A DNA stretch of 64,000 bases from Pseudomonadota bacterium (lineage in GTDB: Bacteria; Pseudomonadota; Alphaproteobacteria; Rhizobiales; MH13): NCBI GenBank assembly GCA_039024915.1, contig JBCCPK010000004.1:310001-374000 (forward strand). Reading direction: 5' to 3'. A program made the translations under genes and the position numbers. The notes under the pieces are model-generated. The model saw only the letters and a program-made list of their open reading frames with translations. It searched no databases and was not told the DNA's origin. Below are positions 39,647 through 49,500 of the stretch, in pieces. Positions within the stretch are counted from its first letter, which is position 1, and each line of letters begins with the position of its first letter.

Positions 39647-40027
39647 ATGCCCCATTTCAGGCCCTTTCACATCAACAACGGGTACAACCCGCACTCCAAT
39701 CCCGAAGCCAAAGGCCCCAACTCGGACGTGGGTTCAGAGCTTGAGAAGCGCGGTTTCAACCCCCAGCCGGAGCCACCCGCGAAAGATCCAATCGGTGAAG
39801 AAACCGATCTTCAAAAGCGGGGTTTTAATCCGCAACCCGAGCCCCCTCCCATGGAGAACGACATTTTCGAGTTCATCGGAGGCGAAACGCCCATCGATGA
39901 AATGGATAGTGACGCCGGGTCCTCCGGGGGACCAAGCGACGGGTATTCGATGCAGATGGATGTCCAATCGCCGCTGGACGACCACGGCTTTGATACCTCG
40001 TCCTGGGAAGACGGGTTCCTGATCTAG
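39647..40027 (+). CDS. Unrecognised protein with KRGFNPQPEPP repeats
   Basis: A 126-residue protein with GAGGAG seven bases before the ATG, a strong ribosome site. KRGFNPQPEPP occurs exactly twice, at residues 34-44 and 57-67, in a 23-residue period, and a diverged copy NNGYNPHSNPE lies at 10-20. The rest (about 70-126) is acidic and low in complexity, ending SSWEDGFLI. There is no cysteine, signal peptide or membrane helix, so it is likely a disordered cytoplasmic protein or a precursor peptide. I do not recognise a family with a known function. It lies about 130 bases after the EEP-family gene in the same direction, with a CRP-like site between. Confidence 0.75.
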   Translation: MPHFRPFHINNGYNPHSNPEAKGPNSDVGSELEKRGFNPQPEPPAKDPIGEETDLQKRGFNPQPEPPPMENDIFEFIGGETPIDEMDSDAGSSGGPSDGYSMQMDVQSPLDDHGFDTSSWEDGFLI

Positions 40028-41427: not shown

Positions 41428-41446
41428 AATGTTATAATATAACATT
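41428..41446. promoter_or_regulatory. Zur-like operator overlapping a consensus -10 box
   Basis: AATGTTATAATATAACATT is a perfect palindrome of nine bases per arm around one central base. It matches the TGTTATANTATAACA zinc-uptake-regulator box. The sequence TATAAT (41433-41438) lies inside it, so bound Zur would block RNA polymerase directly. The GTPase ATG is 29 bases downstream. Confidence 0.85.
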
Positions 41447-49039: not shown

Positions 49040-49192
49040 ATGACCGATCGTGATCAGTGCGGCTGTGATGCCTGCACGCCGACGTGCACATGCGCCAAGA
49101 GCGAGCCCAAAGACGGCCAGTGCTGCTGCGGCGAGGCGTGCACCTGCGGGGACGACTGTGCATGCGGCCCAAGCTGCCGCTGCCCGCAATAA
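49040..49192 (+). CDS. Metallothionein-like Cys-rich protein
   Basis: A 50-residue protein with 14 cysteines at positions 7, 9, 12, 16, 18, 28-30, 34, 36, 40, 42, 46 and 48. The pattern is mostly CxC with one CCC, and there is no histidine or aromatic residue. This is the composition of a metallothionein: two Cys-rich halves around a linker AKSEPKDGQ. It should bind soft metals such as Zn, Cd or Cu in the cytoplasm. GAGGA lies seven bases before the ATG. Its TAA stop shares one base with the ATG of the following regulator gene (TAATG), so the two are translated together. It is too short for ordinary gene-length cut-offs. Confidence 0.85.
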   Translation: MTDRDQCGCDACTPTCTCAKSEPKDGQCCCGEACTCGDDCACGPSCRCPQ

Positions 49193-49500
49193 TGGACGCG
49201 CTTGCGCACGACGGCCAGCCGGTCGAAGGCATCGCGATCGACGGGGCTCAGCTCAAGTCGATCCGTCGTGCCCGCAAGATCGGCCGTCCGAAACTTGCGA
49301 AACTGTCGGGCATATCCGAGCGGCAGATTGCGAAGATCGAAGGGTCCTGCAGCCCGCTGCTCAGCCAGGCGCTCCTCAGTAACTTCTCAAATGTGCTGCA
49401 GGTTCCCGTTCCCGTGCTGACCGGTGAGGCGGACCCGGTCGACTTTGATCTTGAGCCTCTGGCGCCCAAGGCATCCAAGACCTGCAGCTGCTGCGGGTAG
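49192..49500 (+). CDS. Xre-family regulator with Cys-rich C-terminus
   Basis: A 102-residue protein with a helix-turn-helix of Xre type (residues about 20-51: LKSIRRARKIGRPKLAKLSG, ISERQIAKIEG). Residues about 70-90 are a Pro/Val-rich linker, and the protein ends in KTCSCCG (C98, C100, C101), plus C53. A cysteine cluster at the very end suggests metal or thiol sensing. Being coupled to the metallothionein by a TAATG overlap, it is a good candidate for its autoregulator. It could also be a general Xre repressor; the DNA target is unknown. Confidence 0.8.
   Translation: MDALAHDGQPVEGIAIDGAQLKSIRRARKIGRPKLAKLSGISERQIAKIEGSCSPLLSQALLSNFSNVLQVPVPVLTGEADPVDFDLEPLAPKASKTCSCCG

Follow-up and report, generated by a model that had tools for sequence, protein, structure and literature searches.

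A gene for a small cysteine-rich protein lies directly in front of a gene for an XRE-type regulator with a cysteine-rich C-terminus in the window, the 64-kb stretch of DNA analysed here, and we put at about 0.5 the probability that the two encode a metal buffer and a thiol-tailed, zinc-linked regulator whose tail binds metal and alters its DNA binding. A role for the regulator in thiol-based sensing is a good guess, since the pair recurs in three genomes and the tail is found in 29 of 29 regulators, and the association of the regulator family with zinc genes favours a metal signal, most likely zinc. The novel elements are a regulator of this fold that carries such a tail and a metallothionein family that is absent from Pfam and NCBIfam. 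The features of the window that bear on this are:

41429–41445, overlapping matches on both strands: Zur-box-like palindrome in front of cobW, located by matrix score
41475–42686, + strand: gene for a CobW/COG0523 GTPase, a putative zinc chaperone (Pfam cobW, 3.5e-53)
49040–49192, + strand: metallothionein-like gene, 50 amino acids with 14 Cys (from its composition, its homologues at loci L015 and L016, and purifying selection)
49192–49500, + strand: gene for an XRE-type regulator of 102 amino acids with a helix-turn-helix (HTH) domain and a C-terminal thiol tail, the A of its start codon shared with the upstream stop codon
49477–49497, + strand: codons of the last seven regulator residues, KTCSCCG (C98, C100 and C101), a three-Cys tail being present in all 29 distinct members of the family

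The small cysteine-rich protein and its pairing with the regulator

Translation of 49040–49192 (+ strand) gives MTDRDQCGCDACTPTCTCAKSEPKDGQCCCGEACTCGDDCACGPSCRCPQ, a protein of 50 amino acids with 14 cysteines and no His, Phe, Tyr or Trp, exactly the composition described in an earlier, sequence-only reading of this DNA. In an alignment of its three members (from the window, L015 and L016), all 14 Cys columns are invariant, and the window copy shares 63% identity with the L015 protein and 65% with the L016 protein. Most of the nucleotide differences between the window and L015 are silent, both for the small protein (dS 1.45, dN 0.32) and for the regulator (dS 1.11, dN 0.30), and both genes look real because dS exceeds dN in each. 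The protein is short, Cys-rich and has CxC and CC motifs, as is general for metallothioneins; by composition only, it is presumably a metallothionein, and metal binding is assumed. No Pfam or NCBIfam family was matched by any of the three members at E values up to 10, and an hhalign comparison with SmtA (PDB 1jjd) indicated no relationship (probability 1.3% over 8 columns). The sole PDB match of the small protein, a capsid protein at E 1.6, was set aside as chance.

The last A of the metallothionein TAA is the first base of the regulator ATG, and the TAATG stop/start junction reported previously is therefore present at 49192. This ATG is not preceded by a Shine-Dalgarno-like run and, in the window, no in-frame ATG, GTG or TTG lies between it and the conserved core of the regulator, so coupling of regulator translation to the upstream gene is plausible. 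Between 48600 and 49700, no sigma-70-like promoter was detected, and the single terminator-like match equalled the shuffled mean.

A scan of short exact regulator peptides against 84,980 species, each represented by a single genome, returned 15 regulator relatives, 13 of them labelled as Rhodobacterales and the other two (L020 and L025) only as Alphaproteobacteria. In two of the 15, the small Cys protein is encoded immediately upstream, on the strand of the regulator: L015 (Rhodobacteraceae MAG3), with an intergenic gap of 183 bp, and L016 (Tateyamaria sp. syn59), with a gap of 130 bp. The sequence-only reading asked whether the pair is conserved elsewhere as TAATG-linked genes, and would have been refuted by a pair present in no other genome; the pairing itself is found in these two Rhodobacterales genomes, but the overlap is not, given the gaps. 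Loss of the spacer may have created the TAATG of the window, which would also explain why the N-terminus of the window regulator is about 10 residues longer than those of its homologues.

The small protein is rare. In a scan for short Cys-rich ORFs (30–90 amino acids, at least 9 Cys and 17% Cys) that covered the window, 30 further regulator loci and 800 kb of control DNA in 40 stretches, the metallothionein was confined to the window, L015 and L016; a Cys-rich ORF in the control stretch L093 was an unrelated Arg-rich frame. A profile was built from the three members and a strong match was defined as E below 1e-20, the searches covering overlapping genome samples without metagenomes. Across all samples scanned, strong matches came only from the three genomes: the window genome alone among 101 of its relatives (itself included) and among 385 genomes of the class, the L015 and L016 genomes alone among 18 genomes or records carrying the regulator, G872 alone among 101 genomes, G873 alone among 101, and none of the 394 genomes of family f74. 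Within the limits of a small profile and sampled genomes, the metallothionein has thus never been seen away from the regulator. Weak matches at L063–L067 (E 0.002–0.017) were rejected, as two contain internal stops and those at L063–L066 are Cys-rich frames unlike the family. No metallothionein was found on plasmids at E 1e-3, in a BLAST search whose low-complexity filter may hide it, and viral contigs yielded no relatives of either protein.

A regulator family with a three-cysteine tail

The regulator was correctly described as an Xre-type protein ending in KTCSCCG: the 102-residue product of 49192–49500 has the C-terminus ...KASKTCSCCG, with cysteines at positions 53, 98, 100 and 101. Its Pfam matches are HTH_31, HTH_19 and HTH_3 (best 5.3e-4, all below gathering scores), and profile comparison identified P22 c2 (2.6e-4) and SinR (3.9e-3). 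An AlphaFold model based on 23 sequences (mean pLDDT 80.9, pTM 0.64) has a compact helical domain, with an HTH domain of five helices predicted at about residues 18–77, while the tail is modelled at low confidence (mean pLDDT 60 for residues 91–100 and 52 for residues 101–102). The top Foldseek matches of this model are SinR, CapH and C.BclI, all at probability 1.00 (for SinR, E 2.1e-3 and TM 0.76 on the target), and none reached E 0.001 or better. Assignment of the regulator to the XRE/Cro-type HTH proteins, with a domain of the HTH_3 clan, is supported by profile and predicted fold. The SmtB/ArsR family was rejected, as the Pfam hits are HTH_31, HTH_19 and HTH_3 and the helical model matches SinR, CapH and C.BclI first. 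A type II antitoxin of the Y4mF/HipB kind was also rejected, since the couple_hipB score was 21.4 bits against a cut-off of 71.65 and the upstream neighbour is the metallothionein. No metal sensor is named in the titles of the PDB matches listed for the regulator, whether by profile or by fold.

In total, the family comprises 31 loci that encode 29 distinct proteins (L050 is a repeat of L021, and L059 and L060 have identical proteins), nearly all from Rhodobacterales. A regulator profile search recovered 12 of the 394 genomes of f74, which belongs to the same class as the window genome and to a different order, and which takes in the Rhodobacteraceae DT_102 genome, whose contig came from both sources. 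Among 385 genomes of the class, strong matches were limited to the window genome and G122, and a plasmid search located the regulator on three Rhodobacterales plasmids. No homologue was detected in three congeners of the window genome or in one further member of its family (58–98% completeness), and the unit was probably acquired horizontally. Generic HTH matches at 13 places in 11 genomes other than the window's own (E 1e-6 to 1e-3, 28–44% identity, frames of 149–427 amino acids) were excluded from the family; with a crude ORF caller, 0/13 end in a Cys tail. Matches in G377 and G455 (E 7e-10 and 7e-11, frames of 350 and 342 amino acids), which scored far below the rest, were dropped before the family was counted.

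All 29 distinct regulators feature a three-Cys tail, in the form CxxxCC in 20, CxCC in eight and CCSRC in one, and just two cysteines in total lie outside the last eight residues of these proteins (one in L058, the other C53 of the window regulator). By comparison, not one of 699 predicted control genes of at least 90 amino acids (800 kb) encodes CC within the final six residues or three Cys within the final seven. Conservation of the HTH core is strong, with the motifs KIGRPKLAK and ER. In the regulator tree, the window protein joins L015 (100/97), and L016 is placed elsewhere, with L020 and L026 (90/88); the pairing may have had a single origin, followed by losses. For 26 of the 29 distinct regulators, the flanks examined lack such a metallothionein, so control of metallothioneins is not the main role of the regulator. 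The self-contained metallothionein–regulator circuit originally proposed is therefore not the rule for the family, the pair being present in three genomes.

Zinc genes and Zur-like sites around the regulator

To survey the neighbourhoods, core zinc markers (ZnuA, ZnuB, cobW (COG0523), DUF1826, Zur and CDF) were sought by tblastn with proteins from the regulator loci, and a control was assembled from 40 stretches (800 kb) at round coordinates in eight of the 12 regulator-carrying f74 genomes. Core zinc genes occur in 10 of the 31 regulator loci (363 kb in total, of which 20.5 kb for the window) versus one of the 40 control stretches. Fisher's test gave p = 0.0007, rising to 0.003 with near-duplicates collapsed (7/24) and to 0.008 without the window (6/23), values that are only indicative because the markers were picked once the loci had been viewed and the control positions were not random. 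In the other 21 loci, the stretch that was covered contains no core zinc gene, though many stretches span only about 6 kb.

Several of these arrangements are close. In L022, zur-znuC-znuB (encoding a Fur-family protein, an ABC ATPase and an ABC-3 permease) shares the strand of the regulator and lies about 0.9 kb upstream of it, separated from it by an ORF on the opposite strand, and homology indicates the same arrangement in L023. L051 carries a zur-znu-cobW-cobW-DUF1826-DUF1007-NicO island, the last gene of which converges on the regulator gene. In L059, the gene for a CDF cation exporter (L059:9138-10101) ends 7 nt before the regulator ORF, and the two are likely to be an exporter–regulator unit; the L060 exporter is 94% identical. 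The L059 exporter has Cys near its N-terminus. The regulator is accompanied by zinc-type genes on plasmids NZ_CP155730.1, NZ_CP081236.1 and NZ_CP067131.1 (L045–L047), namely extra copies of HisI and ThrS, DUF1826, COG0523, and AdhC or ZnuA; NZ_CP155730.1 and NZ_CP081236.1 were typed as conjugative. DUF6525 is encoded in nine of the 31 regulator loci versus one of the 40 control stretches. The neighbouring genes that were typed differ among the three loci with the pair.

In the window, cobW lies 6.4 kb upstream of the pair, with clpB and others in between, and so provides a neighbourhood link outside the unit; its product is 79% identical to the second cobW of the L051 zinc island. The window also has an ORF at 39647–40027 with a repeated motif, KRGFNPQPEPP.

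Zur-like sites were scored with a matrix derived from five Paracoccus sites (Table 7 of PMC5387054), for which the maximum is 22.2. The palindrome at 41429–41445 is the only site in the 64-kb window that scores 12 or more. When up to two mismatches were allowed, the palindrome was found at three places in the 3.9-Mb assembly of the window genome, compared with one match for a reversed-pattern control: one in front of the window cobW, one close to a second cobW, and one at a Fur-family gene that has an ABC-3 permease gene about 1 kb away. Given that these places are all near cobW or Fur-family genes, the window cobW is probably zinc-controlled. In 28 regulator loci that total 325 kb, some of them near-duplicates, 13 sites score at least 14, versus four in 800 kb of controls, and 21 score at least 12, versus eight in the controls.

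A Zur-like site precedes DUF6525 in six of the eight distinct regulator loci that have this gene (L018:3264-3602, L022, L023, L026, L027 and L057:10131-10424), scoring 12.8 in L057 and at least 14 in the other five. No such site was found before DUF6525 at L021, L025 or the control L072. DUF6525 is convergent with the regulator in the six loci and in L021, and directly follows cobW in L025 and L072. This pattern of sites and neighbours suggests that DUF6525 may be a member of the zinc-starvation response. Among the regulators themselves, an upstream Zur-like site scoring at least 12 occurs only in L057, where a site with a score of 14.6 starts 28 bp upstream of the gene. The three metallothionein genes have no Zur box in their upstream 300 bp, where the best scores are 5.0, 4.0 and 2.3 of 22.2.

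These data raise the alternative that the regulator assists in the zinc-starvation (Zur) response and not in the response to metal excess, in which case zinc in the tail would keep zinc-sparing or mobilisation genes off and the metallothionein would serve as a starvation zinc bank. Most of the linked genes are of the Zur type, for uptake, chaperones or paralogues (zur, znuB, cobW, DUF1826, and the extra HisI and ThrS), and the sites in front of the L057 regulator and of DUF6525 point the same way. A precedent comes from marine Synechococcus, where an excerpt of PMC9337993 describes a metallothionein gene, in strain WH8102, that is likewise tied to zinc control and is activated by Zur. However, the pairings with a CDF exporter (L059 and L060) and with the metallothionein look like metal-excess functions, and the three metallothionein genes have no Zur box, whereas control in WH8102 is exerted by Zur. 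We regard this alternative as unlikely.

Function of the thiol tail

In the mechanism that we consider most likely, the tail, on a flexible C-terminus, would be the sensor of a metal-responsive regulator. The HTH domain would let the regulator dimerise on DNA, the CxCC and CxxxCC tails would bind Zn(II) or a mimic (for example, Cd(II)), and metal in the tail would change DNA binding. In the window genome and those of L015 and L016, the neighbouring target would be the metallothionein, buffering the very metal that is sensed; the regulator may also control its own expression, and could act by repression or activation. Taken to the family as a whole, this would amount to a class of metal sensor on the XRE/Cro fold, with the C-terminal three-thiol tail as the sensor, which runs zinc modules (zur-znu, CDF export and islands) and, in three genomes, a metallothionein, and which is found in Rhodobacterales and in recipients of their genes. 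We advance this wider proposal tentatively, at somewhat less than even odds.

No common operator emerged from the 200 bp in front of these genes, as no shared inverted repeat with half-sites of 4–6 rose above shuffled levels in 27 such stretches; the operator of SmtB/ArsR repressors is an inverted repeat of the 12-2-12 type. At L022:2928, L023:2928 and L025:2956, a GTATCA-N10-TGATAC repeat in front of the regulator is a candidate operator for these loci; it was rejected as a general operator, being absent from the other loci scanned. Between the metallothionein and the regulator of L015, a palindrome, TGATCAAGCGGCTTGATCA, starts 76 bp upstream of the regulator start; it does not recur beyond L015 and was discarded as a shared operator.

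Adjacent cysteines also suit redox, persulfide and soft-metal signals. Were the tail such a sensor (of redox state, persulfide or a soft metal such as Cu, Hg or As), its zinc neighbours would reflect shared mobile regions, and the adjacency of AdhC, an S-(hydroxymethyl)glutathione dehydrogenase, to the regulator on two plasmids would fit; yet the regulator repeatedly has zinc functions as its neighbours, on different replicons and across several parts of its tree, and we consider this explanation distinctly improbable. It is very unlikely that the tail is a handle for metal handover, turnover or protein contact, with DNA activity independent of metal. The low confidence of the modelled tail (pLDDT 60 and 52) and its position outside the HTH domain are compatible with a handle, as is the C-terminal CCHH of CueR, which in an excerpt of PMC6899792 supplies auxiliary Hg(II) ligands, but the tail is kept in every member of a DNA-binding family found beside metal genes, for which sensing is the simplest explanation. 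That an acquired metallothionein came by chance to adjoin an unrelated regulator is scarcely credible: although the pair is known from three genomes with different typed neighbours, the metallothionein lies within 183 bp of the regulator on the same strand in all three, and the L016 regulator stands apart from those of the window and L015 in the tree.

The reading of the pair as a metal buffer and a metal-responsive regulator has parallels in known systems. In SmtA/SmtB and BmtA/BxmR, a metallothionein gene is likewise beside, or in an operon with, the gene for a small metal-responsive regulator; excerpts of PMC8790569 describe BmtA and BxmR as an operon and smtA-smtB as a divergon, and report that AzuR, an SmtB relative inside a znuABC locus, regulates a metallothionein, an arrangement comparable to that of the Cys-tailed family beside znu genes. 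The regulators of SmtA and BmtA are ArsR proteins, whereas the one described here has an XRE/Cro-type HTH with a C-terminal thiol tail. The small protein has no match to the SmtA/BmtA family, and its window copy, unlike SmtA, has no His or aromatic residues. By profile and predicted fold, the regulator has its HTH in common with SinR, P22 c2, C.BclI and CapH, but the conserved three-Cys tail distinguishes the family from all four. A comparable tail exists in CueR, a regulator with the MerR fold. There, the extreme C-terminal cysteines bind metal in addition to the sensor site, as described in part of PMC6899792; CueR has a separate functional metal site, whereas the tail of the present regulator holds nearly all of its cysteines.

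No description of a metallothionein/XRE-regulator pair was found among the literature matches listed (titles and abstract openings, with few subscription journals), and matches that combined metallothionein with xre were, by title, all on eukaryotes or eukaryotic topics. The main text of a study of zinc limitation in Paracoccus denitrificans makes no mention of XRE, helix-turn-helix or metallothionein. To our knowledge, the families of bacterial metal sensors are ArsR, MerR, CsoR, CopY, Fur, DtxR, NikR, TetR and MarR, and XRE is not among them. If the tail senses metal, XRE would be added to the folds of bacterial metal sensors, and the main interest of these loci is a possible new metal-sensor family. 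If true, this would give a role to an uncharacterised Rhodobacterales regulator and would make its pairing with the metallothionein a minimal two-gene metal-response cassette.
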